DNA of 64,000 bases from Arsukibacterium perlucidum DSM 18276 (GTDB lineage: Bacteria; Pseudomonadota; Gammaproteobacteria; Enterobacterales; Alteromonadaceae): the NCBI RefSeq assembly GCF_000382165.1, contig NZ_KB907712.1, forward strand, positions 1-64,000. The letters are read 5' to 3'. The notes under the pieces were generated by a model. That model saw only the letters and a list, made by a program, of their open reading frames with translations. It was not told where the DNA came from and searched no databases. The position numbers and the translations under genes are program-made. Shown one piece after another: positions 17,890-48,266 of the stretch. Position 1 is the stretch's first letter, and every line of letters starts with the position of its first letter.

Positions 17890-17932
17890 TTGCCAACAGC
17901 GTGATATATGCTATAAATGAAAGCGCTTACAT
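17890..17932 (+). promoter_or_regulatory. Promoter with LacI-type operator for the FucP-type transporter/GH3 operon
   Basis: TTGCCA (17890-17895), a 16-bp spacer and TATAAA (17912-17917) form a plausible sigma-70 promoter. Directly after the -10 lies TGAAAGCGCTTACA (17918-17931), one mismatch from a perfect 14-bp palindrome. A repressor there would cover the start point. The region is shared with the divergent GH1 operon, so both directions may be controlled. The same palindrome in perfect form stands at 33486-33499 in front of GH16 in the same relation to its -10. Confidence 0.75.
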
Positions 17933-18008
17933 AATACTAGACGGCCCTGACGTGAACGTCAATAACCAGTCCGTCAATAAAAAACACTATGCACCCGAGG
18001 GGGACAAG

Positions 18009-21862: not shown

Positions 21863-21902
21863 AACCCAGCGCCTGAGCACCATTTCTCTTGCGTGTGAAT
21901 TT

Positions 21903-21929
21903 CTGCCAGCATTAGCTGGCAGTTTTTTT
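21903..21929 (+). terminator. Rho-independent terminator after GH3
   Basis: CTGCCAGC (21903-21910), loop ATTA, GCTGGCAG (21915-21922) is a perfect 8-bp stem followed by seven T. It ends the FucP-type transporter/GH3 operon. Confidence 0.9.
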
Positions 21930-21959
21930 ATCTGAAAAGAAGCCCGGCGTGAGATATCC

Positions 21960-22013
21960 CCAATTATTTGGTAAAAAAATCTAAGATGGCTCATGACCTA
22001 CCCAATTAATTGG
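21960..22013. promoter_or_regulatory. Twin CCAATTAATTGG-type palindromes upstream of the GGDEF/EAL gene
   Basis: Within the 332-bp gap after GH3 lie CCAATTATTTGG (21960-21971, one mismatch) and CCAATTAATTGG (22002-22013, perfect). Their centres are 42 bp apart, about four helical turns, which would suit two dimers on one DNA face. They are candidate operators for the GGDEF/EAL gene at 22195; no regulator can be named. The rest of the gap is AT-rich with no gene. Confidence 0.45.
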
Positions 22014-22194
22014 CAAGCAAGTAGTAACATTAAGACAACTCAGGTAGTGCAAATACCTGAAAAGGTTTCAGGCAGACTGGAACACACTGCAATAATAGTG
22101 AATACTCATTGATATAGATAAAAGCCGACCAAATACTCGCGACTAAATCGGTTATAAATGGCACTATTTACGTGCAAATTGACAGGCGTTATTT

Positions 22195-24696: not shown

Positions 24697-24759
24697 TGGG
24701 CAGAGTACGTTTATTATCAGCTACAATTGCCAATAGACTAATAGACTTGGACGCTGTGT

Positions 24760-27312
24760 ATGACGGCAAAATTTAATCTGCACCCGCTTGCGCTGTTTGT
24801 GTTGTTTGCCGCTGAAACAGCTAAAGCTGAAGCGCAAAGTGATATTTCCACAATTGAAGTCATCGAAGTTACTGCTCAAAAACGTAGCCAAGCGATCAGT
24901 GAAATTCCGATGGCCATATCTGCCTTTAATGATAAGCAGTTACAAGAATTAGGTGTTGAAGATACTACCGATCTGGCAATGGTAGTACCGGGCTTCAACT
25001 ATAGCGATACTGCTTTTGGACCACCGGTATATACGTTAAGGGGCGTTGGCTTTAACGAGTCAAGTGCACAAGCAACCTCTACAGTCGGCATCTATATTGA
25101 TGAAATCACCATTCCTTTTCCTATTATGACCAAAGCAGCGAACCTTGACCTGGCCAGAGTGGAGATTTTAAAAGGACCACAAGGTACGTTGTTTGGCCGT
25201 AATGCTACCGCAGGTGCGATTAACTATATTGCTGCAAAACCTACAGAGAGTTTTGAAACCGGTGTCATTGCCAGTGTGGGCAGTTTTCGATCGCTTAGTA
25301 CAGAAGGCTTTGTCACTGGCGCCTTAACGGAGAATTTAAATGCACGTTTAGCAATACGGGCAATTTACTCGGGCGAAGGCTGGCAACAAAGTGTATCCAG
25401 AGATGACAGACTGGGTGAAAAAGACCGGCTCGCTGCCAGAGTGAGTTTTGACTGGACTGTTAACGGTAAAACAACTGCGCACATTGCGGTAAATTACAAC
25501 AGCGATAGATCAGAAACACTTGCTCCTCAAGCGATAGAATATATAGCAGCAAAAGCAGGCAATGCGATCAATGGCTCTTTTGATGTTTTTGGCCCAATAC
25601 TAGATCCCGTAACAAATCCACAGTTTTTTCCTGGCAATCGCCGTGACATTCGCGCAGCAGATTGGACGGCAGATAGAACGCCGGCACTGGCGCATAACAT
25701 GTATTCCTTATCGCTAAATGTTCAGCATGCATATTCGGACACGTTGCGATTTGTGTCATTAACCGGTTTGCATCGATTTGAAGACAACGGCTCTGAATAC
25801 GAAAGAGGCGGCGCCGCAGGCGTTAGCGCAGGATATATTCGGAATTTAACCGGCGGCTCGTTGGACACTGTTTTTAATGGGATATACCAAGATTTCTATG
25901 AAGGCCATTTACATGGAGATTACGCCTTTATAGCGGATGAAGAATATGTCACATCAGACTATGTTTTTCAGCAGGGTGAAATTGACTCATTCTCGCAAGA
26001 GTTCAGGTTTATAAAAGAGCTGCCACGCCATGTCTGGATTGCCGGCGTCTATTTAAGCAACAGCAAAGTGGACTACCGTACAACACAGGATTGGGGGTTA
26101 GCGACAAACGTAAATATATTGCCGGCACTGGGATTTGGCTTTAATAAATTACGTAATGTTGTGGTGCAGGAAACATCAACACGTTCGGCTTTCACCAGTG
26201 TTGATTGGCATTACAATGACAAGTTAACCTACACCTTTGGTTTGCGCTATTCGTATGATGTTGCCAAATACGATGGTTGCACAGAAGATTTAGACGGTGC
26301 AGGATTGGCATTATTTAACCAGTTTTTTTTCGGCGGAAACGATTCTGGCGGTACAGTGAAAGGTTGCGTGACGGTTATAGACTTTGGCCAACCAGGCCAA
26401 CGAGTTGGTAACATAGAAGACTCATTAAAAGAAGATTCTCTGTCATGGCGTTTTGCCGCAAATTACCAATGGTCGCCCGCCATATCGGTTTATGCTTCGT
26501 ACAATCGAGGATTTAAAGCCGGCAGTTACCCTTCTTTAGCCGCTATTGTGGCCAACCAACTCGATCCGGTTGTGCAGGAGCAGTTAGACGCTTTTGAATT
26601 AGGTATTAAAGCCTCGCTGGCAGAGAATACAGCACAACTCAACCTCGCTGCTTTTTACTACGATTATAAAGACAAGCAACTGCTGACCAAAAAAACTATT
26701 CCGGTATTTAGAACGGCTTTTACCCTGGGTAATATCGATGAATCTTATATACGGGGCGTTGAGTTGGACTTGCAATGGTTTGCAACAAACAGGTTATTTA
26801 TTGGTGCTACAGCCAGTTATATTGATTCAGAAGTAACCAGCGGCAATGGCTTTAACCAGCTGGGCCAGTCGCTGGATTTTGCAGGCTCACCCTTACCCTA
26901 TACATCAAGCTATCAAGCTAATCTTTTAGCAAAATATGAATGGAATTTGCAAAAAGAATACAGCATGTTTGTTGCTGTTGAAGGGGCCTTTAGTAGTCAG
27001 TTTAATGCTGATTTCAAAGCTAATGTCAGTCAAACTAGCCCAGTGGCAGATTTCATTGGCAGCCCGGTAGAAGTATTCATTCCAGCCGAGCCATATTTGT
27101 ACGATGATCGCTTTACTCAACCTGATTATTTTATAGCAAATGCAAGGTTAGGCTTCGAAAGCAAGGCGGGAGATTGGCGGGCATATTTTTGGATCAAAAA
27201 TCTAACTGACGAATATTATGTCTCTAGTGTCGTTAAAAATAATGAAATGGTAGCCGCTTATCCAGGCACCACCAGAACATTCGGTTTAACATTCGAAATG
27301 ACCTTTTTTTGA
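24760..27312 (+). CDS. TonB-dependent outer-membrane receptor
   Basis: The 850-residue protein has a signal peptide and a TonB-box-like stretch (IEVIEVTAQKR). The plug domain includes RVEILKGPQGTLFGRNATAG, and a 22-strand barrel ends in the outer-membrane signature with terminal phenylalanine (FEMTFF). The plug wording is of the type common in sphingomonad and alteromonad receptors for organic compounds. It starts 63 bp after the GGDEF/EAL gene and shares its AT-rich codon use. The ligand is unknown: its position inside a glucan locus suggests oligosaccharides, but it lacks the operator seen at the locus ends. Confidence 0.9.
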   Translation: MTAKFNLHPLALFVLFAAETAKAEAQSDISTIEVIEVTAQKRSQAISEIPMAISAFNDKQLQELGVEDTTDLAMVVPGFNYSDTAFGPPVYTLRGVGFNESSAQATSTVGIYIDEITIPFPIMTKAANLDLARVEILKGPQGTLFGRNATAGAINYIAAKPTESFETGVIASVGSFRSLSTEGFVTGALTENLNARLAIRAIYSGEGWQQSVSRDDRLGEKDRLAARVSFDWTVNGKTTAHIAVNYNSDRSETLAPQAIEYIAAKAGNAINGSFDVFGPILDPVTNPQFFPGNRRDIRAADWTADRTPALAHNMYSLSLNVQHAYSDTLRFVSLTGLHRFEDNGSEYERGGAAGVSAGYIRNLTGGSLDTVFNGIYQDFYEGHLHGDYAFIADEEYVTSDYVFQQGEIDSFSQEFRFIKELPRHVWIAGVYLSNSKVDYRTTQDWGLATNVNILPALGFGFNKLRNVVVQETSTRSAFTSVDWHYNDKLTYTFGLRYSYDVAKYDGCTEDLDGAGLALFNQFFFGGNDSGGTVKGCVTVIDFGQPGQRVGNIEDSLKEDSLSWRFAANYQWSPAISVYASYNRGFKAGSYPSLAAIVANQLDPVVQEQLDAFELGIKASLAENTAQLNLAAFYYDYKDKQLLTKKTIPVFRTAFTLGNIDESYIRGVELDLQWFATNRLFIGATASYIDSEVTSGNGFNQLGQSLDFAGSPLPYTSSYQANLLAKYEWNLQKEYSMFVAVEGAFSSQFNADFKANVSQTSPVADFIGSPVEVFIPAEPYLYDDRFTQPDYFIANARLGFESKAGDWRAYFWIKNLTDEYYVSSVVKNNEMVAAYPGTTRTFGLTFEMTFF

Positions 27313-27670
27313 AAAATAAAACGAGAGGTAGATCGGCACTCGGCCACTTCAAAAACAAAGTCTGATTAATGCACTTGGTAAGTAGCCACATCCTTGTTAT
27401 CTGGCTTTGGCTGAAGCTGAGCGGCAACAAGCCTAACGTGATATGTTCGAAGGCGAAGTGAGTGCAGCCTTGTTGTGTGATATTTGAAGTGCGACGAAAA
27501 GTGGTATGGCGCTGGGTAATGACAGGTTTAAACAGGAAGTTGCGGATTTATCGGGACGGCGGCAGCAAATGGGGCAGAGGGGACGGTCGACAGGGTGGCA
27601 AGAGCCGATTTAATTTTAATCTAACCCTAATTATCAATATAAATATCAGTGCAATATACAAAATCAGCGC
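27313..27670. other. Gap with no supported gene
   Basis: Between the two convergent TonB receptor genes there are short open frames only, with no ribosome site or recognisable product. One paired stretch (CAACAAG near 27425 with CTTGTTG near 27469, and GCCTAAC inside) resembles half of an integron attC site but lacks the matching GTTAGGC-type end. It may be decayed mobile DNA. Confidence 0.4.
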
Positions 27671-27696
27671 AAAAAAAGTGCCCGCATGCGGGCACT
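27671..27696 (-). terminator. Rho-independent terminator after the TIGR01782-type receptor
   Basis: AGTGCCCGCATGCGGGCACT (27677-27696) is a perfect self-complementary stem. On the minus strand it is followed by seven T. It ends the GH16/receptor operon, 38 bp after the receptor stop. Confidence 0.88.
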
Positions 27697-27733
27697 AAAC
27701 CGGAGTTACAACAGGGAGGGTATTACAGTATGA

Positions 27734-30700
27734 TCAATTGCCCATGGTGTATCTGACACCAATGGCGTACCTTGGCCCATATTGCGCAGCACTTAAGAAC
27801 TGCCGTTCGAACCGGCCAAAGCTGCGCTCGGTTTCATTGGTCAGGTTAATACCTTCGAAGAATACGGTCAGGTTTTCATTAACGTCGTAGTTAACGCTTA
27901 GATCCCACTGTAAGTATTCTTCAACATAATTAGGCGGCGCATCAGTTGTGTCTGGCTGGCCCTGTCCCGCCAGATATTCGTCACGCCATGCGGCCGTTAA
28001 CCGGACCGACCAGCCTTCTTTCTCGTAGAATACCTGCCAGTTGGCCGAGTTACTCAGACCGGGCAGAATCGCCTGTGCCGCCAGCACGAAATTATCGTAC
28101 TCCACATCACCGTCCACCAGGGTGCCGTTGATTCCCGTGCCGAAACCACTGTCGCCAAACACGTGCTGAACCGCAAATTCCAGGCCGTTTACTTTTCTGG
28201 CACCGACGTTTTCAGGAGAATTGATTGTCCACGAAATCAACGGATCGGTAGCAGGATCCGGTAACACACGGTTGTTTTCACCTATACCCACACCATTGGC
28301 AACAATCTCGTTGTAAATGGCTGCATCGGTAGCCTGCTCGCCACGAGCCTGAATGGCCGCAACCGCATTATTCCAACGCTGGCCCTGATAAACGTCATGC
28401 AAGCCCTCGAAGGTTGTGGTGACTTGTGAGTTATCGATCCAATCGTCAACGTCTTTCCAAAACAGGCCTATGGCCGCATAACTTGCATCGCCGTAGTAAT
28501 ATTCCAGCGAGAGGTCCAGGTTGGTTGATTCAAATGGTTTCAGATTAGGGTTGCCGCGGCTGCCACTTCTGGCGCCTATCTTGGGTGAAGGTGTCAGACT
28601 AAGGTTGCCAAGCATCTGCCCCAGGGTGGGCCGGGTAATGGTTTTGCCTGCCGAGAAACGTCCAACCCAGTCTTCGGTGATATCGACTTTCACGTCAAAC
28701 ATGGGCAGCAGTAAGTCATAGTTGCCGGTGAACTCGACCTCTACCAGTTCACCGCCACTGGCGAACTGCGTCAGCCACTCTGACCCTCCGGCCCAATAGA
28801 CATACTCAGGCACGCGGCTCCGAGCCGGGCTGACAATGTCGGTTTCTTCATAGCGTAAACCGAGGTTCACATCGACATAGTAACCTTTGACTTCAAATTC
28901 CCACTCCGTTGAAACATAAAGGCTGAGCGTTTCTTCTTCGATGCGATTCACCGGGAACATCTCCGGCCCGAATGTGCCAATCTCGTAAGCATCAGCGCCC
29001 AGCACATCCTGTGTGAGGAAGGCCATTTGCCGGATGATGGCTTCATCGATATCAAAGGTATAAGCATACCCGGGGGATACCCCATCTGGTCCGAAGGCAA
29101 ATTGATTCAGAAAGTCACTCAAGTCAACACGTTCAAACATGCTATCCGGGAAAATTTCGGCAAAGGTGCCGTTGTTGAATCCCGGCGCGTTGGCGTTATT
29201 GGAGCCACCAGACCCGCTAAGAGATTGCTTGGTGTAAGCCGCACCGAATGAAACACCCATCAGGCCATAACCAAGATCGGGCAGCCAATCCCCGCCAAAC
29301 TGATACTGAGTAACTTCTGATTCACCCGGGGTACGGGTGAAGATGCTGAAGTTCGATCCTATTTCACTCGGGCTGAGTTCATTGGAGCCATTTTGCCAGC
29401 TGATGTTGTAGCCTGGAATATCACCCTCGCGGAAAAAATACTCCTTAGATAACAGAGCAGCCGACCCCAGAATGACCCGTGCCTGTGCCCCTAATCCCTT
29501 ATCCTTGCCATTGTCTGTGGTGGTTTTGGACGTATGGGCATCAAAGCTGAAGTTTAATGAATCAGAAAACGCCCATGCGACGTTAAAACCAGTAGCTTTT
29601 GAGTCGACTTCGCCAGTCTCCCTGAAACCGGTAAAAGAGCCATCATCGCCGGATGAGTTGTAATAAATGGCCGTGCCATTTTCATCTAACTCATAGGCAT
29701 TAGCATTGCCACCAAAGGAACCGTTCCACACGCCCCACGACAGCGAGTTATTGCCGGTCACCGCATTGGAAATGGTGTGATCCAGCGTCAGGATCACATC
29801 ATCCGTTGCCGCAAACTGAAAGGTCACCTGACCATTGGTTCGCTCACGTTGAATATCATCGCGGGCGAAACTGATTTCCTGAGGAAAGAATGCTGCGGTA
29901 ACAGGCTGTAAATCGCCGTTGGCATCAGGTGCCCAGAAACGGGGAATGACCTCGCCGTTGGCATCCATCGGCCGGCCATCCACAACATCCGACGCATCCA
30001 CTGACAAGGACGGGTTTAACTGCCAGGAGCGGATATTTGCAGACTGCCGCTGGAAGTCTCTGCGGTGGAAGGAAAAGTTAGCGGTAACGCCAAAACGGTC
30101 ATCCATAAAGGTATTGCTGTAAATACCCGCAAATTCAGGCGTCAGGTCGTCACCGGCTTTATTCGAGGAGTCATGCAGGCCCTTCGCCATAAAGGAGTAA
30201 CGCTCTCCCGGATTTTGCAGAGGTTTAGCAGTAACAATATTGACCGTTGCGCCCAGGCCACCTGTTGGCACATCTGCTCGGGCGGTTTTGTATACCTCTA
30301 ACGCACTGACTCCCTCGGAAGATAAGTTTTCAAAGTTAAACGACCGTGAAAAACCTGTTCCGGCCATCTGACGACCATTGAGGGTAACCAGGTTGAATTC
30401 AGGACCAAAGCCCCTGACAGTAATCTGACTGCCTTCACCGTTTGCCCGACTAACCGATACCCCGGTAATACGCTGCAACGATTCAGCCAGGTTAGTGTCG
30501 GGAAACTTACCCATTTCCTCTGCTGAAATGGCATCCACCACGCCCGAGGCTTCGCGTTTCACGTCCATCGAACGCGCTAAACTACCACGAATCCCCTTTA
30601 CCTGAACAATCTCAATATTGACGTCCTGCGCCTGTTCTGGCTCTTGTTCCGCTTCCTGCGCCTGCACCGGCATGAGCAGGCCGGCTGTCAGTACGACTGA

Positions 30701-30745
30701 TACCGCAATGGCAACCCGGCTTTTATTAAATAATATTGGTTTCAT
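27734..30745 (-). CDS. TonB-dependent receptor, Xanthomonas/Caulobacter type (TIGR01782-like)
   Basis: From ATG 30745 the protein is 1003 residues with a signal peptide ending AQA. The N-terminal motif VKGIRGSLARSMDVKREA with FPDTNLAESLQRITGVSVSR is the hallmark of the TonB-Xanth-Caul group, receptors for plant or algal oligosaccharides. The usual terminal aromatic residue is displaced by two residues (YTMGN). It lies 25 bp downstream of the GH16 gene in the same direction, so the pair forms an outer-membrane glucan-binding and import unit under the operator at 33486. A start at 30814 would overlap GH16 and is rejected. Confidence 0.92.
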   Translation of the reverse strand: MKPILFNKSRVAIAVSVVLTAGLLMPVQAQEAEQEPEQAQDVNIEIVQVKGIRGSLARSMDVKREASGVVDAISAEEMGKFPDTNLAESLQRITGVSVSRANGEGSQITVRGFGPEFNLVTLNGRQMAGTGFSRSFNFENLSSEGVSALEVYKTARADVPTGGLGATVNIVTAKPLQNPGERYSFMAKGLHDSSNKAGDDLTPEFAGIYSNTFMDDRFGVTANFSFHRRDFQRQSANIRSWQLNPSLSVDASDVVDGRPMDANGEVIPRFWAPDANGDLQPVTAAFFPQEISFARDDIQRERTNGQVTFQFAATDDVILTLDHTISNAVTGNNSLSWGVWNGSFGGNANAYELDENGTAIYYNSSGDDGSFTGFRETGEVDSKATGFNVAWAFSDSLNFSFDAHTSKTTTDNGKDKGLGAQARVILGSAALLSKEYFFREGDIPGYNISWQNGSNELSPSEIGSNFSIFTRTPGESEVTQYQFGGDWLPDLGYGLMGVSFGAAYTKQSLSGSGGSNNANAPGFNNGTFAEIFPDSMFERVDLSDFLNQFAFGPDGVSPGYAYTFDIDEAIIRQMAFLTQDVLGADAYEIGTFGPEMFPVNRIEEETLSLYVSTEWEFEVKGYYVDVNLGLRYEETDIVSPARSRVPEYVYWAGGSEWLTQFASGGELVEVEFTGNYDLLLPMFDVKVDITEDWVGRFSAGKTITRPTLGQMLGNLSLTPSPKIGARSGSRGNPNLKPFESTNLDLSLEYYYGDASYAAIGLFWKDVDDWIDNSQVTTTFEGLHDVYQGQRWNNAVAAIQARGEQATDAAIYNEIVANGVGIGENNRVLPDPATDPLISWTINSPENVGARKVNGLEFAVQHVFGDSGFGTGINGTLVDGDVEYDNFVLAAQAILPGLSNSANWQVFYEKEGWSVRLTAAWRDEYLAGQGQPDTTDAPPNYVEEYLQWDLSVNYDVNENLTVFFEGINLTNETERSFGRFERQFLSAAQYGPRYAIGVRYTMGN

Positions 30746-30770
30746 AATGGTTTTACTCTCGTCGCACTGA

Positions 30771-33407
30771 TTAGTTATTAGAAATTTCAGCGTTATCAAT
30801 TTGATACACCGCACCCGTGCCAGTACCCCAGGCTGGGAATACCATAATTACACTGATGTCGCTGATATCTAAGCCAGCGTCAAACAGGCTTTGTAACGGA
30901 AAGCTGTAACGTTGCCATTCGCCGGTTACCGGTGTCTGGTCGTTGTTACCCGCCGCTAACGGCAGCTCTACCGCACTGGCAGCACCAGAGGACTCGATTT
31001 TAAATAGCCAGCTTGAATCCGGATTGGCAGGGGCATCTACTACCCGCATGTCAAAACTTACACTGCCATTGGCCAGCAGTGGCGTAGCGTCAAAAGATAC
31101 GCCCGGGTTGGCTAAAAAGCCCTGTACGGTTTCTGGCGAGCCCAATACTGAAAACTGCGCGACGTTACCGTAAGGAGCACCTGCATCAACAACCTGCGGC
31201 GTAGAGCCGGCACAACAATCCCACAGAGTCCAGTCCGGGTTAACGTCGTCCCGGAACAGCGTTAACAAGCCGGCATTCTGGGCATTAGGGTTATAGATCC
31301 TGACATTATCCAGCCGGTATATCGCGCCCTCGCCAGTACCCCAGGCAGGAAATACCATCAACACATCAATGGCACTGATATCAAGGCCGGCATCTGACAA
31401 GCTTTGAATGCTGAAGGTATAAGTGGCCCACTCACCGGTAACAGGCTCATTTCCGGCATTGCCAGCACTGAGCGGCAGTTCTACAGCAGAAGCCGCGTTA
31501 TCTGCTTCAATTTTAAACATCCAGCTCGAATCCGGGTTAGCCGGTGCTGCTACCACTTTCATTTCAAACTGCACTACGCCCTCAGCCAGCAAGGCTGATG
31601 CATCAAACGGCTCACCAGAACCATCTGGCGCACGGTTAATAAAGCCCATAACGGTTGGAGAAGCGCCAATAGTGAACTCGGCGGTCAGGCCATGTGCTTC
31701 GTCATCCATTGCTTCAACCGGAGTTGAACCGCCACAACAATCCCACATAGGCCAGGCCGGGTTCTGGCCATCGGTAAAAATAGTCAGCTCGGGCGAGGCA
31801 CCATCAGGCTGCGCAATTTTTACGTTGTCTACCCGATAAACCGCACCATTACCGGTATCCCAGGCTGGGAAAATCATGACAACATCGATAGCTGATAAAT
31901 CCAGGCCGGCATCGGCCAGCATTTGAAGCGGGAAAGTATAGGTTTGCCATTGACCGGTAACTGGCGCAATGCCCTCGCTACTGGCGGTAATAGGCAGTTC
32001 GGCGAAGGTGGTGTTTTCATTGCTTTCTACTTTAAACATCCAGCTTGAACCGGGGTTAGATGGCGCAGACACTACCTGCATATCAAAGCTGATACTGCCA
32101 TTTTCAATTAAGGGTGAGGCGTCAAACGGGCTGGCCACACCTGCCGGATCAGTAATAAAAGCTGAGCGGGTAATAAAGCCATTTACGGTAGGCTGAGCAT
32201 TAACAACAAACTCGTACACATTACCACGGCCCTCAACTTCAAGCAGAGCAGGGGTAGAGCCACCACAGCAATCCCAGGCAGGCCAGTTCGGGTTAGGCGT
32301 GTCAGCAAAAATCGTCAGATTCTGGGCAACATCGGTAGAAGGTGGCGACGGGATCGGGGCTTCGCCTGTGACCAGAGTTTCTTCATCTTTATAGCCGGCA
32401 CGCACCGTCTCACAACCTTTGCCGCTGTCTAAATCCTGGCCGCATTGGTATACCCGGACATAATCAATTTCGTAAGTCTGGCCATCAGCAAAAGCAGCAG
32501 CGTCAATTCCCAGGTTGTTGACATTCTCCGGCCAGTTACCGCCAACTGCCAGATTCAGCAATAAGTGGAAGCGCTGGTCAAATGGCGCGTTATTCCACTG
32601 CGTTTCCAGTGCGCCGGTGACAATATTATAATACTCAGCAAACCAGCCCCGGTGACTGAGGCCCACCGCTTCGCCGCGGCTGTTAAAGCGCACTTTAGAC
32701 GCCATTTGAGTCTGATACAGATAATCGTCAACATACCAGCGAATTTCGCCTTCATTCCACTCAATAGCATAGGTATGGAAATCATCAGCAGGGTTAACAC
32801 CCTCTGGCAACAAATAGGCCTTGCCTGAGCTGGCGTTATTCGGCCAGTCGCGACCATAATGGATAGTGCCGTGGACATTGGCTTCTGCCACGCTATCTTC
32901 ACCAACCACTTTCAGGTTAACTGCTTCGACAATGTCGATTTCACCCGATTTCGGCCAGCCGCCATACACTTCATCAGTAGGCAGCATCCAGAACGCCGGC
33001 CAGCTACCCTGACCCGAGGGCAATTTGGCCCGCATTTCAAAGCGGCCATATTTAAAATCGCCCTGGTATTTGGTATTCAGCCGGGCCGAAGTATAAGGCA
33101 AAGGAGCGCCTTCTGCTGCAGGTAACGCTACGATCTTCAGAGTGCCGTCTGATACAAAAGAGTTTTCCGGGCTGTCGGTATAGCATTGTTTTTCATTATT
33201 ACCGCCACCGGCGCAATTTACTTCATGCGTCCACTTTCTGTTGTCGATGCTGGTGCCATCAAACTCGTCACTCCAAACCAGTTGCCAGTCACTTACCGGC
33301 GCGGTTGGGTTAACCGCGGTTAAATCGGTATTAGTGGCAGTATCGCCACCACAACCGGCCAGGCCTGCCGCCATTAGTAAGGCGGTTAACGTTGAAATAT
33401 GTTTCAT
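30771..33407 (-). CDS. GH16 lipoprotein endo-beta-glucanase (laminarinase) with three repeat modules
   Basis: From ATG 33407 the protein is 878 residues. A lipobox LAGC (Cys 19) is followed by a GH16 domain (residues about 40-322) with the catalytic motif GEIDIVEAVN: E156 nucleophile, D158, E161 acid/base. GRFEMRAKLPSGQGSWPAFW is typical of laminarinases. Three copies of a module of about 165 residues follow (about 364-534, 541-708, 714-877), each with a WDCC[GA]GSTP motif near its start and YR[VL]DN near its end. It should sit on the outer membrane and cut beta-1,3-glucan for the neighbouring receptor. Confidence 0.93.
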   Translation of the reverse strand: MKHISTLTALLMAAGLAGCGGDTATNTDLTAVNPTAPVSDWQLVWSDEFDGTSIDNRKWTHEVNCAGGGNNEKQCYTDSPENSFVSDGTLKIVALPAAEGAPLPYTSARLNTKYQGDFKYGRFEMRAKLPSGQGSWPAFWMLPTDEVYGGWPKSGEIDIVEAVNLKVVGEDSVAEANVHGTIHYGRDWPNNASSGKAYLLPEGVNPADDFHTYAIEWNEGEIRWYVDDYLYQTQMASKVRFNSRGEAVGLSHRGWFAEYYNIVTGALETQWNNAPFDQRFHLLLNLAVGGNWPENVNNLGIDAAAFADGQTYEIDYVRVYQCGQDLDSGKGCETVRAGYKDEETLVTGEAPIPSPPSTDVAQNLTIFADTPNPNWPAWDCCGGSTPALLEVEGRGNVYEFVVNAQPTVNGFITRSAFITDPAGVASPFDASPLIENGSISFDMQVVSAPSNPGSSWMFKVESNENTTFAELPITASSEGIAPVTGQWQTYTFPLQMLADAGLDLSAIDVVMIFPAWDTGNGAVYRVDNVKIAQPDGASPELTIFTDGQNPAWPMWDCCGGSTPVEAMDDEAHGLTAEFTIGASPTVMGFINRAPDGSGEPFDASALLAEGVVQFEMKVVAAPANPDSSWMFKIEADNAASAVELPLSAGNAGNEPVTGEWATYTFSIQSLSDAGLDISAIDVLMVFPAWGTGEGAIYRLDNVRIYNPNAQNAGLLTLFRDDVNPDWTLWDCCAGSTPQVVDAGAPYGNVAQFSVLGSPETVQGFLANPGVSFDATPLLANGSVSFDMRVVDAPANPDSSWLFKIESSGAASAVELPLAAGNNDQTPVTGEWQRYSFPLQSLFDAGLDISDISVIMVFPAWGTGTGAVYQIDNAEISNN
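30777..32318 (-). repeat. Three tandem copies of a beta-rich module within the GH16 gene
   Basis: The repeats encode LT[IL]F, then W..WDCC[GA]GSTP, a central FD[AM] and SSW[ML]FK[IV]E, then PVTG[QE]W..Y and FPAW.TG.GA.YR.DN. The spelling is well conserved among copies, consistent with internal duplication. The order suggests a galactose-binding-like sandwich, probably carbohydrate-binding, similar in outline to the ExoP tail domain. The neighbouring cysteine pair in each copy is unusual. Confidence 0.8.
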
Positions 33408-33485
33408 TTTAATTATCATCCCCTGGGTCTTTGCTACCTGCTGACTGAAACGCCAACACCAATAAAGGTATCTGCAACACAAAAA

Positions 33486-33706: not shown

Positions 33707-33911
33707 TGCGTTAAGTTGATGACACGAGTATGCCGGCAAGTCTCATGTACAATATCCTTACTTGTTCACTAAAATGGCTTTCCTGTACGTTTCAGCTTTT
33801 CAGATATAGGAAATCAATAAATTTATACATATCCGCCTCAATGTGTATAGTTTTTTGAATTTTTTATACATACTGTATCAACATATATATAAAAATCACC
33901 GGGAACTTTGC

Positions 33912-34991
33912 ATGTCCTACGTATTAGCAGCACTGCCACTACCAAGCATTGAACAATGGGAAACCCGCGCGGTATTAAAGAAGACAGCAGAAGCGCATCG
34001 TTATCTAGCCGAACTGAAAGGTGTTGCTGCGAGTATCCCCAACGAAGCCATACTGATCAACACGCTAAGTTTGCAAGAAGCAAAAGACAGCTCAGAAATA
34101 GAAAACATCATCACCACTCACGATGAATTATATAAAGCCAATCTGTTTACAGATGCGGTTACCAACCCTGCCGCCAAAGAGGTGCAGGACTATGTGTTTG
34201 CCTTAAAAGAAGGTTTTCAAACTGTTAGACGGCAAAAACTAATTCGACTGACCGATATATTGCAAGTGCAGGAAAATCTGGAGAGAAACCAGGCAGGTTT
34301 ACGCAAACTGCCGGGAACAGATCTCAAAAACGCCCACACAGGAGAAATCATTTATACGCCACCACAGCATGCAGAAACCATAGCTGGGTTAATGCACAAC
34401 CTTATCGAATACATTAACAATGATGAACTCTGTGATGCTGACCCGCTGGTAAAAATGGCGATTATCCATCACCAGTTTGAAAGCATACATCCATTCTACG
34501 ACGGTAATGGCCGCACAGGCCGGATCCTGAACATTTTGTATCTGGTGGCCAAAGAACTACTAAACCTGCCGGTTTTGTACCTAAGTAGATTTATGATTCG
34601 TGACAAAGCAGCTTATTACGCGCAATTACAGCAACTGCGCGAAACTGGTGATTGGGAGTCATGGCTGATCTATATGCTTGATGGTGTAATAGATACTGCA
34701 ATTAATACCATTTCGCTGATCACTGAAATAAAAACCCTGATGGAAACCTACAAACACCGAATCCGGGACGAGCTACCCAAAATTTATCGTCAGGAGTTGC
34801 TGAACAATGTGTTCAACCATCCGTATACTAAAATTGAGTTCGTAATGATTGACCTTGGAGTATCCCGCATTACCGCAACTAAGTATTTAGAAGAACTTGT
34901 CCAGCATGGTTTTCTGCACAAAGAAAAAATTGGCCGCAGTAACTATTACATTAACCATCTGCTGTATAGTTTACTGATGCTGCATGCTTAA
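33912..34991 (+). CDS. Fic-domain AMPylase, class II (SoFic-like)
   Basis: From ATG 33912 the 360-residue protein has a Fic N-terminal helical domain. The inhibitory helix motif [ST]xxxE[GN] is seen as S60...E64-N65, and the full catalytic motif HPFYDGNGRTGR occupies 193-204. A C-terminal winged-helix region follows (residues about 300-355, GVSRITATKYLEELVQHGFL). The wording closely follows Shewanella SoFic from memory. Fic enzymes transfer AMP from ATP to Ser, Thr or Tyr of target proteins, and class II forms are self-inhibited. An earlier in-frame ATG at 33843 lies in AT-rich leader DNA and is unlikely. Confidence 0.92.
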   Translation: MSYVLAALPLPSIEQWETRAVLKKTAEAHRYLAELKGVAASIPNEAILINTLSLQEAKDSSEIENIITTHDELYKANLFTDAVTNPAAKEVQDYVFALKEGFQTVRRQKLIRLTDILQVQENLERNQAGLRKLPGTDLKNAHTGEIIYTPPQHAETIAGLMHNLIEYINNDELCDADPLVKMAIIHHQFESIHPFYDGNGRTGRILNILYLVAKELLNLPVLYLSRFMIRDKAAYYAQLQQLRETGDWESWLIYMLDGVIDTAINTISLITEIKTLMETYKHRIRDELPKIYRQELLNNVFNHPYTKIEFVMIDLGVSRITATKYLEELVQHGFLHKEKIGRSNYYINHLLYSLLMLHA

Positions 34992-41633: not shown

Positions 41634-44522
41634 ATGCTAAATCAAGCCTCTTTGACAACAAAAGCCTTATCCCAGTCACAGGTCAAGCTGGTGTTGTTTC
41701 TAATGGCGTTGATTCTGATAACGTTCTTACCTTTACTGCTGAATATCGATCTACCTGAACTAAGCCATCAGGCTTATCTGCCGTTACATACCGTACTTGA
41801 GATTTTAGCTATTGTTATTGCGGCAATGATTTTTGCTATTATCCGTGAGCAAGCACTGGTAAACATGACCCTGCGGGGAGTGGTTTTAGCTTGTTCATTT
41901 TTTACTATTTTCTGGTTAGATCTGGCGCACCTGCTGTCTTATCAGGGCATGCCTGATTATTTCACTGTTAACGACCAACAAAAAGCTATTAACTTTTGGC
42001 TGGCAGCACGGTTAATTGCCGCATTTGCCCTGTGTTTTGCTGTTTTACCTGTTGCCGACAAAAGTACCGGCTTAACCACTTACTACAAGATACTTTTAGC
42101 AGCGATAGCCACAGTAATTAGTCTGAATTATTGGTTTGTTAATCACCCCAATACCTTACCGGTATTTTATATTGATGGTGTTGGCCTGACTAAAGCAAAA
42201 ATTATTGCTGAATATGTGGTTATCTTTATCAACCTGATAACAGTATTTTTTATTTTACATTACCGCGGGCATCAGCGGCCTTTTCATACACCAGCGCTGT
42301 TTGCTGCTGTTGTTACTATGATCCTGAGCGAGTTTTATTTCACCTTGTATGGCAAATTCAGTGACAGCTTTAATATTTTAGGCCATGCCCTGAAACTCTT
42401 GTCGTATTTATTTTTATACCGGGCTCTGGTTTTTGAAACGCTGGCAGCGCCTTTTGCGCAGATGCTGCAATCGAAAGCGGAGCTTTCAGCTACCCTGGCT
42501 GCGGTACCTGATATTTTATTTGATGTTGATCTTGAAGGACGCTTTCATCGCGTTCATTCCAGACCCGATAGCAAACTTTATCTTAGCCCCGATCTGTTTA
42601 TTGGCAAAACAGCTACCGAAGTGCTGCCGGATAACGTGGCGAAAGCCATGCAAAAAGCGATAAACGAAGCCTACAGTCATCAGGGCTGCTCAGATGCCCA
42701 TCAATATGCCCTGACAATTGAGCAGGATGCTGACCCAAGCTGGTTTCAGGTTATTGCTGCAGTAAAAACAGATAACAACGTCATACCACACTTTATCCTG
42801 GCCGTAAGGGACATTACCGCACAAAAAAATATGCAGGCGACAGAGCAGCTTAATGCTCTGGCATTTCACACCCGCGAAGCCATCATGATTACTGATGCAG
42901 AGCGGCGTATTATCCGGGTAAACCCGACCTTTACCGAGATTACCGGGTACAACGAAGCCGAAGTTATTGGTCAGAAGCCATCGGTGCTTAGTTCTGGCCT
43001 GCACGATCCGTCTTTTTACCAACATATGATGCAAATGCTGGAGCAGTATGATGTCTGGAGTGGCGAGATTTACAACCGACGAAAAAATGGACAAGTTTAT
43101 CCTGAACATGTTGTGATTAATGCCCTGAAAAATAATGAAGGCCTGGTTACCCATTACATCGCCAGTTTTAACGATATCAGTAAAGCCAAGGCAGATCAGC
43201 AACGCATCCACCGGTTAGCATTTTATGATCCCTTAACGCACTTACCAAATAGGCGTTTACTGCTGGAGAAAATTAAGGAGGCACAGCTTGAGTGCCAGCG
43301 TAGCGGCGACTTCGCAGCCTTACTGTTTATCGACTTAGATCACTTTAAACGGCTTAATGACAGCTTTGGCCATTCATTTGGTGACGACTTACTGCGCCAG
43401 TTGGCAGAGCGGCTGCAGTTAAGTATTCGCGCTACCGATACCCTGGCCCGGCCTGGTGGTGACGAGTTTATCTTGCTGGCCAGGTTGCAAACCGCAGATC
43501 CGGTAACAGCAGCCGCAGACGCTGAGATTCTCGGCAATAAATTATTAGCGGAAATACGCCTGCCCTTTGTGTTGAAGGGTCATCATTACCAAATAACCGC
43601 CAGCATTGGCGTTGCCCTGTTTAATAACAATAGTAAAGGTATAGATGAGTTAATGTCGTCAGCTGATTTGGCTATGTACCACTCAAAAGAACATGGCCGT
43701 GATCAACTCTACTTCTTTGAACAACAAATGCAGCAGCAGTTGCGACAGCGACAAAAGCTGGAACATGAATTAAAACTAGCGTTAACAGAGCAGCAATTCT
43801 CGCTGTATTACCAACCCAAAGTTAATAGTGTACGGCAATTAGCAGGCTATGAAGCTTTGATTCGTTGGCATCATCCAGAGCAAGGTATGGTTTCGCCGGA
43901 TCTTTTTATCCCGTTAGCAGAGAGCTCTGGACTGATTATTGATATTGGCACATGGGTACTGAAAACCGCCTGTCTGCAAATTAAATACTTTATGGATCAG
44001 GGAAGCCGGTTAGTTATTGCTGTCAACGTTAGCCAACGCCAGTTGGTGCAAAAGGATTTTGTCGATACTGTTAAGCAAATCATAAAAGATACCGGTATTC
44101 AGGCTAACTTATTGGAGCTGGAAATTACCGAGAGCATGCTACATGATGATCTGGTAGCGACACGTAAAAAGTTACTGGCCCTTAGTGATATAGGTGTCAC
44201 ATTTTCACTGGACGATTTTGGTACCGGCTATTCGTCATTATCTTATTTAAAAAATCTGCCTATACATGTGCTGAAAATTGACCAGTCATTTGTTAAAGAA
44301 TTTCTGATAGAAAAGACCGATCGCGCCATTGTACTTACCATTATAGCGATGGCTGAAACGCTGGGTCTAACAGTGGTAGCTGAAGGCGTTGAGCAACAGC
44401 AACAATTTGAGGCACTGGCTGAAATGGGCTGCGCTCTGTTTCAGGGTTACCTGTTTGGCAAGCCAGCACCATTACCTGAGCTGATGTCGGAAAAAATAAA
44501 TTTAATTGATGCAAAGCAATAA
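41634..44522 (+). CDS. MASE3-PAS-PAS-GGDEF-EAL cyclic-di-GMP protein
   Basis: The 962-residue protein starts with a seven- or eight-helix MASE3-type membrane sensor (residues about 18-270). Two PAS domains follow (about 280-395 and 405-520, the second with ITGYNEAEVIGQKPSVLSSG). GGDEF is intact at 608-612 in RPGGDEFILL, and EAL is intact at 740-742 in YEALIRWHHPEQG. Both activities may be present, with local sensing deciding the balance. It starts 171 bp after parS and ends 61 bp before the PCMT/GspE fusion gene in the same direction, so it may share that transcript. Confidence 0.92.
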   Translation: MLNQASLTTKALSQSQVKLVLFLMALILITFLPLLLNIDLPELSHQAYLPLHTVLEILAIVIAAMIFAIIREQALVNMTLRGVVLACSFFTIFWLDLAHLLSYQGMPDYFTVNDQQKAINFWLAARLIAAFALCFAVLPVADKSTGLTTYYKILLAAIATVISLNYWFVNHPNTLPVFYIDGVGLTKAKIIAEYVVIFINLITVFFILHYRGHQRPFHTPALFAAVVTMILSEFYFTLYGKFSDSFNILGHALKLLSYLFLYRALVFETLAAPFAQMLQSKAELSATLAAVPDILFDVDLEGRFHRVHSRPDSKLYLSPDLFIGKTATEVLPDNVAKAMQKAINEAYSHQGCSDAHQYALTIEQDADPSWFQVIAAVKTDNNVIPHFILAVRDITAQKNMQATEQLNALAFHTREAIMITDAERRIIRVNPTFTEITGYNEAEVIGQKPSVLSSGLHDPSFYQHMMQMLEQYDVWSGEIYNRRKNGQVYPEHVVINALKNNEGLVTHYIASFNDISKAKADQQRIHRLAFYDPLTHLPNRRLLLEKIKEAQLECQRSGDFAALLFIDLDHFKRLNDSFGHSFGDDLLRQLAERLQLSIRATDTLARPGGDEFILLARLQTADPVTAAADAEILGNKLLAEIRLPFVLKGHHYQITASIGVALFNNNSKGIDELMSSADLAMYHSKEHGRDQLYFFEQQMQQQLRQRQKLEHELKLALTEQQFSLYYQPKVNSVRQLAGYEALIRWHHPEQGMVSPDLFIPLAESSGLIIDIGTWVLKTACLQIKYFMDQGSRLVIAVNVSQRQLVQKDFVDTVKQIIKDTGIQANLLELEITESMLHDDLVATRKKLLALSDIGVTFSLDDFGTGYSSLSYLKNLPIHVLKIDQSFVKEFLIEKTDRAIVLTIIAMAETLGLTVVAEGVEQQQQFEALAEMGCALFQGYLFGKPAPLPELMSEKINLIDAKQ

Positions 44523-44583: not shown

Positions 44584-46824
44584 ATGACGAGTGCAAATAA
44601 TAACGTCGCAGAACCGATCCAGCGGCATCTTTTTGTCAGCAAACCGCAAACCGCCGGGCTGGTTTCTGGCCACAGTATGCCAACTCAGGCTGCTGTACAG
44701 CGCATTTTGCAGCTAATCCCTGAAATCAAACCTCAGCACACTGTTATGCATATCGGTGCCGGCACCGGCTACCTTAGTGCAGTTTTATCTGCATTGGCTG
44801 CAAAAGTATATGCGGTAGAACGCGATGCCAGGCTAATCAGTGATGCCAGTCAACGCTTTGCCGCCTTGGGTATTCATAATATTCAGCTGGTGCTGGCAGA
44901 TGTCAACGACAGTGTGCCGGCAAGCGAGCCCTGCCAGCTTATTCTGGTAACCTGTTTGCTGCAAAGCTACCAGCACCTGCTATCGCCACTGGCAGAAAAT
45001 GGCTTGCTTGCGGTGATCGAGGATGAAAAGGATCATGTTTCAAGTTTAGTGTTATACCAAAAACAGCAGGGGCAATTTAAACGGCTTAGTAATCTGGGCT
45101 GGATTGATTTCAGCCGCAGACTGGAGGATATGGTAACAGACCTCGGTTATGCTGATGACACCGCCCTGGCCGAAGCAAGGCTGGAAGCAAAACGCAATAA
45201 TGAGCCAATTGCACAGGCCCTAAACCGCAAAATTCAGCAGCAAAGTAAACCTTTATACGAGGCCATGGCGGCTGAACGAAAACTGCCTTTCATCGATTAT
45301 GACAACCTGATAAAGCAAGTAGACCCCGGTTTATTCAGTCATTTTGCCCGCACCTTTCTTGACCGCAACAGGGCGTTGCCGGTAAACCTGCTGGACAACC
45401 GGCTTATGATAATTACCGATAACCCGGATGCAGATCTGGCTGAGCTGGCTGTAATGAATGGCAATGGCAAAGTTCACTGCGCCCTGGTAACACCAGAAGA
45501 TTTTCACCGGATATGGACCCAGCTGGATATTAGTTCCAAAGCGCTGCAGCAATCAAATTTTGCCAGTAAGTCAGATAAAGATGACGCGGTAACAGACCCT
45601 TTACCAAACCCGGTAAGCCCCTACCTGGTGTCACTTTATGAGGCGCTTCTGATGGAAGCGGTCAGTGAGCACGCCAGCGATATTCATCTGGAGTGTTATC
45701 AGAAGTTGCCGAGAGTCCGGCTTAGAATTGACGGCGACCTGCACGACTTAACAAATTTTGAAATCAGTATGTCGGAACTGACAGGCCTGATTAACGTGAT
45801 CAAAATTCGTGCAGAGCTGGACATCGCGGAGCGGCGATTACCGCAAGGTGGTCGCAGCCAGGTAAAACAAGCCAATCATCTGTACGATTTACGGGTGCAA
45901 ACCCAACCAGCATTACACGCCGAACATGTGGTTATCCGCTTGCTAAAACACACTGGCCGGGCCATGACCATGCAAGATCTGGGAATGTCAGCAAGAGTTG
46001 CCAGCATGTACCAACGTTTACTGAATAATCCGGCAGGGCTGGTGTTAGTTGTCGGTCCAACCGGCTCAGGCAAATCCACTACGCTATATGCCGGCCTGCA
46101 AGAGCTGGCAGATGATGGCAAACGCAAAGTTATCACAGTTGAAGACCCGATAGAGTACTCAATAGATAAAGTACAACAAACCCGGGTAAGAGCCGATATC
46201 GGCTTTGATTTCCCCGACGCGGTGCGGGCCTTTGTCCGACAAGATCCCGACGTGATTCTGGTAGGCGAAATCCGTGACCACCCAACCGCGCTGGAGGCAG
46301 CCAGGGCCTCTCAAACCGGCCATCTGGTGCTATCCACTTTGCACTGCAACGATGCCGTTGATGCCATCCAACGGCTCAGAGATCTCGATATTCACCCTAA
46401 TTCTATAGCCAGCGAACTGCTCGCCGTTATCGCCCAACGCTTAGCAAAACGTATTTGTCCGGACTGCCGGGCCCTTGCCGAACCCGACCCAACCATCCTG
46501 GCCGAACTATTCCCCGAAGGGGTACCAGGTAATTTTCGCTGTTTTGCCGGCGCTGGTTGTAAACGCTGTCATGGCAGAGGCACCCTTGGCCGGATTGCTG
46601 TAGTCGAGTTTTTGCTGATGAATACCGACATTCGTAATGCGATTTCCAGAGAAAATACGGCTATCGAATTACGTTGGCAGGCGTTAGATGCCGGCATGAT
46701 CACAATGCGCGACAGTGCGCTTAATCTGATAATTGACGGCATCATCCCATTAAGTGAGCTGCCCAAAGTATTGCTGCAGGAGCGGATGGCGCCCGAGCAT
46801 CGGGGGGGCGTGAGGGAGCAATGA
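44584..46824 (+). CDS. Fusion of a PCMT-like methyltransferase domain, MshEN-like region and GspE/PilB-type ATPase
   Basis: Residues about 10-165 form a SAM-dependent methyltransferase domain of the protein-isoaspartate type: MPTQAAVQ (32-39) and motif I VMHIGAGTGYLSAVLS (54-69), with VYAVERD as motif II. Residues about 177-240 look like a degenerate MshEN c-di-GMP-binding segment ending LPFIDYD. The ATPase has an Asp box ASDIHLE, Walker A GPTGSGKS (491-498), Walker B PDVILVGEIRD (555-565), a His box GHLVLSTLH and a four-cysteine zinc motif (C625, C628, C659, C662). Secretion ATPases normally lack the first domain. No pilus or secretin genes are near. Confidence 0.88.
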   Translation: MTSANNNVAEPIQRHLFVSKPQTAGLVSGHSMPTQAAVQRILQLIPEIKPQHTVMHIGAGTGYLSAVLSALAAKVYAVERDARLISDASQRFAALGIHNIQLVLADVNDSVPASEPCQLILVTCLLQSYQHLLSPLAENGLLAVIEDEKDHVSSLVLYQKQQGQFKRLSNLGWIDFSRRLEDMVTDLGYADDTALAEARLEAKRNNEPIAQALNRKIQQQSKPLYEAMAAERKLPFIDYDNLIKQVDPGLFSHFARTFLDRNRALPVNLLDNRLMIITDNPDADLAELAVMNGNGKVHCALVTPEDFHRIWTQLDISSKALQQSNFASKSDKDDAVTDPLPNPVSPYLVSLYEALLMEAVSEHASDIHLECYQKLPRVRLRIDGDLHDLTNFEISMSELTGLINVIKIRAELDIAERRLPQGGRSQVKQANHLYDLRVQTQPALHAEHVVIRLLKHTGRAMTMQDLGMSARVASMYQRLLNNPAGLVLVVGPTGSGKSTTLYAGLQELADDGKRKVITVEDPIEYSIDKVQQTRVRADIGFDFPDAVRAFVRQDPDVILVGEIRDHPTALEAARASQTGHLVLSTLHCNDAVDAIQRLRDLDIHPNSIASELLAVIAQRLAKRICPDCRALAEPDPTILAELFPEGVPGNFRCFAGAGCKRCHGRGTLGRIAVVEFLLMNTDIRNAISRENTAIELRWQALDAGMITMRDSALNLIIDGIIPLSELPKVLLQERMAPEHRGGVREQ

Positions 46825-47909
46825 TGACAACAGCTAAAGCACAGAAAAGACCGGCTGAGCAGCACTATGCCGCCGAACTACAGCGACTGCAGCAAGCAGA
46901 TACTGCACCAGTGCCACCCGGCTGGTTTATGTCAGCTGTTGCCGTGGAAAAATTTATCAATGGCGATGCAGAGCTGACAATAGAGCGCAAATTTGTCGCC
47001 GAACCGGGCGTGGTTACCCGGATCATCCTGGCTCTATGTACGCAGCGAGGCGCATTGCTTACCGGCGAACCCGGCACGGCAAAGTCATGGCTATCCGAGC
47101 TGCTCAGCGCCGCAATCAGTGCCGACTCTACTAAGATTATTCAGGGTGGCGCAGTCAGTAATATTAATCAATTGCTATACAGCTGGAACCCGCAACTGCT
47201 GCAACAACGCGGGCCCTGCGTCGAAGCTCTGGTAACAACGCCCTTATACCGGGCAATGCGGGATGGCAAAATATTGCGTTTTGAGGAAATATCCCGTTGT
47301 CCGCAGCCATTGCAAGACGCAATATTATCGATTTTATCTGAGCGAATGTTAGTGGTACCGGAACTGCCCGCCGCGCAGAGTACGCTTTATGCCAAAGCGG
47401 GTTTTAATATTGTTGCCAGTGCTAACAGTATTGATGAAGGTTTGCAACGAATGAGCGCGGCGTTAAAGCGCAGGCTCAGTTTTGAACATATTCGGCCCAT
47501 TCGCCATATCGACGATGAAATGGATGTTATTTTGTGGGAAACCAGCAAATTAATGGCAGCTAATAACATTGATAGCACCGCAGATGCCGAGCTGATTGAG
47601 GTGCTGGCAACTATTTTTCATGAATTGCGCAATGGGCAGACTCTTGATGGCCGCAGTACAGACCGGCTGGCCGGGGCGACTATGTCTACCGCCGAAGCAG
47701 TTAGTGTGGCTCATGCCATTTATACCCATGCCTACTATTATCAACAAACTAAGCCAGATGCCCAACTGCTGTTGCATGTTTTACTGGGCTCGGCATTAAA
47801 AGATCATCCGCAGGACAGGCGCAGATTAAAACACTACGTGGAAACTGAGTTTGCAGAGCGTAAAGGTAAATACTGGCAGGCACTGTACCAATACCGATCG
47901 CTAATATAA
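46821..47909 (+). CDS. MoxR-type AAA+ ATPase
   Basis: The 362-residue ATPase has Walker A GEPGTAKS (82-89), Walker B ILRFEEIS (151-158), a sensor 1 region NIVASAN (196-202) and arginines at KRRLSFE (216-222). This is the MoxR/AAA_5 style usually paired with a von Willebrand-factor protein. No such partner is present. Its start overlaps the fusion gene's stop by four bases, so the two are translationally coupled, which suggests a joint function such as remodelling or loading a complex. Confidence 0.87.
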   Translation: MMTTAKAQKRPAEQHYAAELQRLQQADTAPVPPGWFMSAVAVEKFINGDAELTIERKFVAEPGVVTRIILALCTQRGALLTGEPGTAKSWLSELLSAAISADSTKIIQGGAVSNINQLLYSWNPQLLQQRGPCVEALVTTPLYRAMRDGKILRFEEISRCPQPLQDAILSILSERMLVVPELPAAQSTLYAKAGFNIVASANSIDEGLQRMSAALKRRLSFEHIRPIRHIDDEMDVILWETSKLMAANNIDSTADAELIEVLATIFHELRNGQTLDGRSTDRLAGATMSTAEAVSVAHAIYTHAYYYQQTKPDAQLLLHVLLGSALKDHPQDRRRLKHYVETEFAERKGKYWQALYQYRSLI

Positions 47910-47924
47910 TAAGAGGAACATATT

Positions 47925-48266
47925 ATGCTGGAAAGTGGTGACCTTTTACTGATCTGTTATCGCAGATTATTCAGCAACGATGAAAATCGTTTTTTCCTGG
48001 GCAAGGTAGATGACTATCAGGCTGGCATTGTCAAAATAACCGGTCACAGTTTTTTGCGTGACAGTGTTACCGGCAAGATGGCAGAAAAGTCTGATCTGGC
48101 TACCAAAATTCTGTCAATCAGCTCAGGTTCGCTTATCGTCTATCAATTGCCATCCACCCTGATGCTGGCTGATTTGCGCTTTGAGCAAAAGATGATGCAA
48201 CTTATATTGCTTGATGATCAAGGGTTTTCGCTGGACCTGACCGAGAAATTACAACGGCAAAACTAA
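47925..48266 (+). CDS. Small conserved-looking protein of unknown function
   Basis: The 113-residue protein starts with a good AAGAGGAA site 15 bp after the AAA gene. It has no signal peptide or membrane helix. The pattern of short beta strands (GDLLLICYRRLF, FFLGKVDDYQ, SLIVYQLP) suggests a small beta-barrel or SH3-like fold. I do not recognise a family. As third gene of the fusion/AAA operon it may be an adaptor or partner. Confidence 0.7.
   Translation: MLESGDLLLICYRRLFSNDENRFFLGKVDDYQAGIVKITGHSFLRDSVTGKMAEKSDLATKILSISSGSLIVYQLPSTLMLADLRFEQKMMQLILLDDQGFSLDLTEKLQRQN

Follow-up and report, generated by a model that had tools for sequence, protein, structure and literature searches.

A PCMT-like head on a traffic ATPase, paired with a YehL-type MoxR protein: a recurrent two-gene unit in Arsukibacterium perlucidum and other gammaproteobacteria

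The combination of a methyltransferase-like head with a secretion- or pilus-type motor, and the pairing of this motor with a MoxR ATPase, make up a two-gene unit that recurs in gammaproteobacteria. We describe it from a stretch of 64,000 nucleotides of Arsukibacterium perlucidum DSM 18276 (contig NZ_KB907712.1, called C12 here, positions 1 to 64,000; the genome measures 4.0 Mb), hereafter called the window. On the forward strand, at 44584-46824, lies a gene for a fusion protein of 746 amino acids (aa) in which a PCMT-like domain precedes an MshEN-like and a T2SSE ATPase domain; the next gene, at 46821-47909, encodes a MoxR AAA+ ATPase of 362 aa which, judged by sequence, is of the YehL type. 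The fusion and this MoxR form the core of the system. We tentatively favour the reading that the MoxR protein remodels the PCMT-headed traffic ATPase, which would work on a platform resident in the cell, belonging to a type IV filament or a type II secretion system; we give this reading somewhat less than an even chance.

The list of open reading frames (ORFs) of the window bears out the initial annotation of this region, which had placed three genes between 44584 and 48266. The stop codon of the fusion and the start codon of the MoxR gene share four bases, ATGA, at 46821, and the third gene, for a small protein of 113 aa at 47925-48266, begins 15 bp after the MoxR gene. The translational coupling proposed there for the first two genes fits this overlap, and the pairing extends to the relatives: the fusion is followed by the MoxR gene in the same order and on the same strand at all 31 loci collected from eight genera and seven families, as well as at locus L059. 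In 30 mapped loci the two genes overlap or are separated by no more than 18 bp; three larger overlaps, of 13, 113 and 253 bp, are taken for start-site calls of the gene caller, which also yields spurious ORFs in GC-rich loci, and the main neighbours were checked with tblastn. As the fusion measures 746-777 aa at every one of the 31 loci and always has the MoxR gene next to it, the arrangement is not due to chance. These loci are not independent, since ten come from one genus and two (L041 and L042) are nearly identical. The named relatives found at this locus are those of Arsukibacterium tuosuense and A. ikkense, followed by Alishewanella jeotgali, A. aestuarii and A. agri, although very close records may be left out of this list.

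The pair is rare and patchily distributed across the gammaproteobacteria. Of 25 genomes of the genus, five carry a full-length fusion, and of 16 others in the order none does; in wider samples it turned up in at least two genomes out of 394 for the order and at least two out of 398 for the phylum, the genome of the window being counted in each. In the order of genome G761 one of nine genomes carries it, and in that of G902 at least 24 of 341. The counts over 394, 398 and 341 genomes are lower bounds, one to three candidates having been scored per listed genome. The traffic ATPase is the most conserved part of the unit, with a mean pairwise identity of 72% for the T2SSE part and 62% for MoxR. 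The distance matrices of the ATPase and of MoxR are strongly correlated (r 0.93, a value reached in none of 2000 permutations), which shows shared descent rather than contact between the two proteins. In a clustering of the neighbouring genes the fusion and MoxR alone were present in all lineages, and no third partner common to them was found. The core therefore consists of two genes, since the neighbourhoods differ and the motility and cyclic di-GMP (c-di-GMP) genes that recur in them are not constant.

The motor part of the fusion (T2SSE, residues 349-725, 45628-46758) matches Pfam at 358 bits for a cut-off of 24.9. All 31 fusions keep the Walker A lysine K497, the Asp-box E520, the Walker B E562, H587 and the four cysteines C625, C628, C659 and C662; eight of the nine arginines of the N2 domain are likewise kept throughout, while R417 is present in 18 of the 31. 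The roles of these key residues follow PMC9765406 and were mapped by us onto the fusion. An ATPase with complete motifs behind a PCMT-type N-terminal domain, as the initial annotation had it, is thus well founded. Among solved structures the closest are entries for type II secretion protein E and for PilB/PilF, and the best NCBIfam matches are GspE (402 bits) and PilB (395 bits), below the respective equivalog cut-offs of 630 and 676. With the GspE/PilB/MshE extension ATPases of type II secretion systems and type IV pili, the fusion has in common the key T2SSE residues, the four cysteines and a preceding MshEN-type domain. It differs from them in its sub-cut-off scores, its PCMT head, its MoxR partner, the absence of an adjoining platform gene and its separate position in the tree. 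There, by a quick tree method, the 31 fusions form a single clade on a long stem against 43 other rows (of which L014 and L045 stand for one and the same gene). An origin from the traffic ATPases already present in the genome was considered and set aside: these paralogues are 35-42% identical to the fusion and fall outside its clade. The genome also holds a fourth, divergent traffic ATPase (G000, contig C2, 267625-268791), which has its own platform gene and whose branch in the tree of ATPases is very long.

In genome G000 and four congeners, 15 platform proteins were counted (4, 3, 2, 4 and 2), and each of the 15 is encoded beside another ATPase. The fusion is, for this reason, an orphan motor.

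The MshEN domain, which had escaped the initial annotation, was matched at residues 234-314 (45283-45525; 28.4 bits for a cut-off of 23.1). According to PMC5013675, MshEN domains that bind c-di-GMP carry two tandem RLGxx..G..LxxxLxxQ motifs. We looked for this motif just before the match, at residues 179-231, in a register that we placed ourselves. The position of Gln32 is alanine in all 31 fusions and neither Gly40 nor Gly47 is a glycine in any of them; Gly18 is kept in all 31, Gln61 in 15, Arg38 in 10 and Gly11 in 6. The domain thus appears degenerate and is unlikely to bind c-di-GMP in the MshEN mode. Sensing of c-di-GMP through this domain was rejected, as three key positions are lost in every fusion, even though others are kept in part of the rows.

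The head of the fusion (residues 11-165, 44614-45078) matches Pfam PCMT at 49 bits for a cut-off of 20.3. A methyltransferase fold in this region, on which the initial annotation had staked its case, is present: the AlphaFold model of residues 41-170 has blocks with a pLDDT (predicted local distance difference test) of 74-88, its best fold match is 1dl5, a solved isoaspartyl methyltransferase (Z 16.5, root-mean-square deviation 2.0 over 143 residues), and the twelve top matches all belong to the PCMT family, 8qby_t by name. A phmmer search of the PDB likewise returned an isoaspartyl methyltransferase as the closest solved relative (E 2.4e-12). The loop for S-adenosylmethionine (SAM), GxGxGY, and the motif GxSxP are invariant in the alignment of the 31 loci, and the acidic residue following strand 2 is a glutamate in 28 and an aspartate in three. 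We read the head as a PCMT relative that probably binds SAM.

It is probably not an isoaspartyl repair enzyme, to judge by its departures from the family. The fold and SAM motif I are common to the head and to protein-L-isoaspartate O-methyltransferase (PCMT/PIMT). Unlike that enzyme, the head is fused to an ATPase and has lost the N-terminal part of the profile, the match beginning at position 37 of 210. The aspartate of the GDG motif is present in only 19 of 31 fusions. Counted from the Phe to the Pro of the active-site loop, all seven canonical Pcm proteins compared have 27 residues; of the 29 fusions matched by the length pattern (L041 and L042 were not matched), 25 have 16-17, one has 24 and three have 28. 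The missing start of the profile, the unconserved GDG and the loss of about ten residues before the active-site loop make repair look unlikely, and the damage- or methylation-linked role put forward in the initial annotation is left unsupported. The PCMT part also diverges fast, its mean pairwise identity being 38%.

The MoxR protein matches Pfam AAA_5 at 94 bits and is 46% identical over 353 aa to YehL of Escherichia coli K-12, a protein of the same length. Its P-loop lysine, Glu pair, Asn202 and Arg217/218 are kept in all 31 paired forms. These form one clade, with support of 100/100, against ten YehL-type rows; K-12 YehL joins this clade at 99/99 on a long branch, so that the exact order is unsure. 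The tree lacks rows for L079 and L086, two of the 11 YehL-type loci found without the fusion, as the gene was overlooked there by the gene caller. Across the class, MoxR matches were found in 13 of 369 genomes, namely the genome of the window, G761 (with the fusion) and 11 others.

By sequence the paired MoxR groups with YehL; its genetic setting is different. The E. coli gene sits in yehI (DUF4132)-K-L-M-P (VWA)-Q (SWIM). Among the 11 non-paired loci, a DUF5682 relative is found in ten and a VWA protein in nine, and a PCMT or T2SSE part in none (Pfam on five loci); the exceptions are L084, with neither DUF5682 nor VWA, and L086, a contig of 3.4 kb without VWA. At the 31 pair loci, tblastn found no relative of YehI/DUF4132, YehM/DUF5682, YehP/VWA, YehQ/SWIM, DUF5691 or other proteins of these clusters, the search for DUF5682 being confined to the loci. 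The paired MoxR thus stands apart from the YehL clusters by its own clade and by the fusion in the place of the yeh partners. The clusters themselves, with a YehL-type MoxR, DUF5682 and VWA (L079-L089), are scattered over the class and come in two versions, one with DUF4132 and one with a DUF5691 protein.

Misfit to the usual systems of either ATPase, a point of the initial annotation, is therefore supported. Its statement that no platform or VWA partner lies nearby stands for the window and for the 30 other loci by tblastn; that no pilin or secretin lies nearby stands within the 18 window proteins scanned with Pfam. PMC3893208 presents MoxR proteins as maturation factors that resemble chaperones and in general work with a VWA cofactor. 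The excerpt of PMC4858521 links archaeal type IV pilus loci to MoxR/GvpN-VWA pairs, so that a MoxR-type ATPase is tied there, as here, to type IV filament genes; the archaeal pair includes a VWA protein, which does not adjoin the pair here, and a PCMT fusion is not described in that excerpt. The literature searched names no client for a YehL-type MoxR.

The favoured reading brings these features together as a self-contained module of a motor and its remodeller. With VWA and DUF5682 partners not adjoining and the traffic ATPase as the sole constant partner, the ATPase is the obvious client of the MoxR protein, which would load, unlock, release or recycle the motor. Traffic ATPases form rings, and the fusion would presumably do the same. 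Through its conserved T2SSE part the motor would engage a platform that the cell already has, of a type IV filament or of a type II secretion system; a borrowed platform is proposed as none of its own was found. The SAM-bound head would act as a docking or sensing surface and not as a repair enzyme, and, fast-evolving as it is, it could provide target choice or a metabolic signal. Several observations weigh against this reading. Relatives of four platform proteins were absent from all 31 pair loci by tblastn. At least one platform is encoded elsewhere in all pair genomes tested (7/7 and 24/24), yet this lends weak support to borrowing, since platforms are near-universal and occur in 13 of 14 control genomes too. 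No pilin or secretin was found among the 18 Pfam-scanned proteins of the window (from 57 ORFs of at least 120 aa), and the search went no further. Beyond residues 41-170 the model of the full-length fusion is of low quality (mean pLDDT 46.6, from six rows), and no statement on the ring rests on it. One other gene in each of seven pair genomes has a partial VWA_CoxE match of 31-44 bits, above the cut-off of 26.4 (the proteins of yeh-like clusters score 163-177 bits), so that a VWA partner may exist elsewhere in these genomes. Lastly, in view of the long stem of the fusion clade, the ATPase may no longer belong to any filament system.

This last point leads to the explanation ranked not far behind the favoured one, unlikely as we hold it to be: fusion and MoxR would form a soluble remodelling machine in which the PCMT-fold head recognises the substrate, with SAM as cofactor or signal, and the ATPase is no longer a filament motor. 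The separate, long-stemmed clade and the lack of a platform gene near the pair at the 31 loci fit such a machine. So does the neighbourhood in five other genera, where the genes scanned are for the most part metabolic or regulatory ones without relation to the pair (amidase, penicillin-binding protein, GTP cyclohydrolase, aldehyde dehydrogenase, MMPL transporter, TetR/MerR regulators), and so does the presence among the fold matches of the head of 8qby_t, a chain from a complex I entry of Paracoccus, and of 9oma, PCMTD1 in a CRL5 complex, both of which may have roles other than repair. Against it stand the complete traffic-ATPase signature, four cysteines included, in all 31 fusions, the T2SSE domain as the most conserved part of the unit, and platforms in all 31 genomes tested. 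Less probable still is an output device for motility or second-messenger signals, in which the pair would adjust flagellar or pilus motility at the command of c-di-GMP or chemotaxis genes close by. A GGDEF-EAL gene does lie upstream of the fusion in the window, L059, L040, L041 and L042, overlapping the fusion start by 4 bp in the last two, and at G353 a different, response-regulator GGDEF-EAL gene follows the fusion, MoxR and small-protein genes. Of the ten loci of genus g387, seven have a DUF2802 gene whose end directly adjoins the fusion, with cheW-, parP-, parA-, motA- and cheB-like genes ahead of it (Pfam in one locus); in another one, however, DUF2802 is 2.2 kb distant, and the remaining two lack it and have instead, ahead of the fusion, a gene that matches ParA weakly (28-29% identity). 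Moreover, no GGDEF-EAL gene adjoins the pair in L039 and the one of L042 is split. In 15 loci of five other genera tblastn found neither the queried che genes nor a GGDEF-EAL gene, L196 having a MotB-like stretch about 5 kb from the pair. The fusions themselves have lost key positions of the c-di-GMP motif and kept others only in part.

The idea of the initial annotation, a motor linked to protein damage whose head methylates isoaspartyl residues, draws on the family and fold of the head and on the invariance of GxGxGY and GxSxP. It is made very improbable by the scattered GDG aspartate, by the shortened Phe-Pro stretch, by the fast divergence of the head and by a separate canonical Pcm, scoring at least 205 bits, in each of seven pair genomes. 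Least credible of all is a defence or mobile-element system. The rarity and patchiness of the pair and its varied surroundings would suit it, as would a match of PADLOC mads_2 to the fusion (56.9 bits). This match covers the PCMT part only, and those of mads_8 (20.3 bits) and mads_3 (17.9 bits) the P-loop only. Neither MoxR nor the small protein has a PADLOC match, and no defence set was recognised among the Pfam-scanned neighbours, which lay outside the PADLOC scan. A phage origin was rejected, as the IMG/VR scan gave no relative and as the fusion and MoxR match, in PHROGs, general ATPase or methyltransferase families or families of unknown function. A plasmid origin was rejected as well, since none of the best 5000 plasmid matches listed spans 80% of the fusion.

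The small unknown protein that the initial annotation placed after MoxR is there in the window, at 47925-48266 on the forward strand, and does not hold as a general rule. Among the loci examined, the window shares it only with L059, with L060/L039 (a single genome) and with G353, so that it is confined to the Arsukibacterium group and G353. A relative was found in one of 295 genomes of the order, G353 being either outside this sample or missed. With so few occurrences, it was rejected as a core part and is best seen as an optional, lineage-specific extra. At the limits used, Pfam, NCBIfam, PADLOC and PHROGs gave no match to it; it has no plasmid match either. Its model is beta-rich (pLDDT 80), with matches only to ribosomal-protein and Sm-like barrels; the best Z being 6.8, the fold is not firm.

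On other aspects, the surroundings of the pair offer observations in their own right. The upstream neighbour in the window, outside the core, is a MASE3-PAS-GGDEF-EAL gene recognised with Pfam (41634-44522, forward strand). In Alishewanella aestuarii the corresponding upstream GGDEF-EAL gene lies in two overlapping frames, either a real break or a sequencing error (L042, 13301-15022 and 12118-13530; L062, 7046-8767 and 8538-9950); the fusion and MoxR of L042 are intact despite it. In g387 (L161, 12135-19673, and other loci) the pair ends a chemotaxis and motor cluster and precedes fliK-like and ccm-like genes; the names parP, cheA, cheB and ccm are those we presume for these neighbours. An amidase gene directly follows MoxR in two unrelated lineages (L078, 2706-4322, in the opposite orientation; L192, 6547-7962). 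Elsewhere in the window, an MFS transporter, a GH3 enzyme, a dCache-GGDEF-EAL protein, two TonB receptors and a GH16 enzyme (17901-33482) look like a cluster for beta-glucan use, and a SoFic-like Fic protein adenylyltransferase is encoded at 33843-34991. Promoter-like sites numbered 13 for 11.8 expected and terminator-like sites 14 for 8.1 expected; no conclusion was rested on either.

The component families of this pair are known individually, and one literature collection yielded no publication on the PCMT-traffic-ATPase architecture or on its pairing with MoxR. The pair could be an energy-coupled machine of a new, two-gene class, in which a traffic ATPase with a SAM-sensing PCMT head is loaded or recycled by a YehL-type MoxR; this is a possibility that we regard as doubtful. 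If it is true, a bacterial motor of the type IV filament kind would have a dedicated MoxR partner, and the YehL subfamily, of which little is known, would gain a defined client. The strict pair, with one traffic ATPase in place of DUF5682 and VWA, provides a small and testable system for the targets of YehL-type MoxR proteins. The pair suggests, too, that the motors of type IV filaments can gain a metabolite-binding head and detach from a dedicated platform, an idea for which environmental bacteria such as Arsukibacterium or Alishewanella offer a testing ground.

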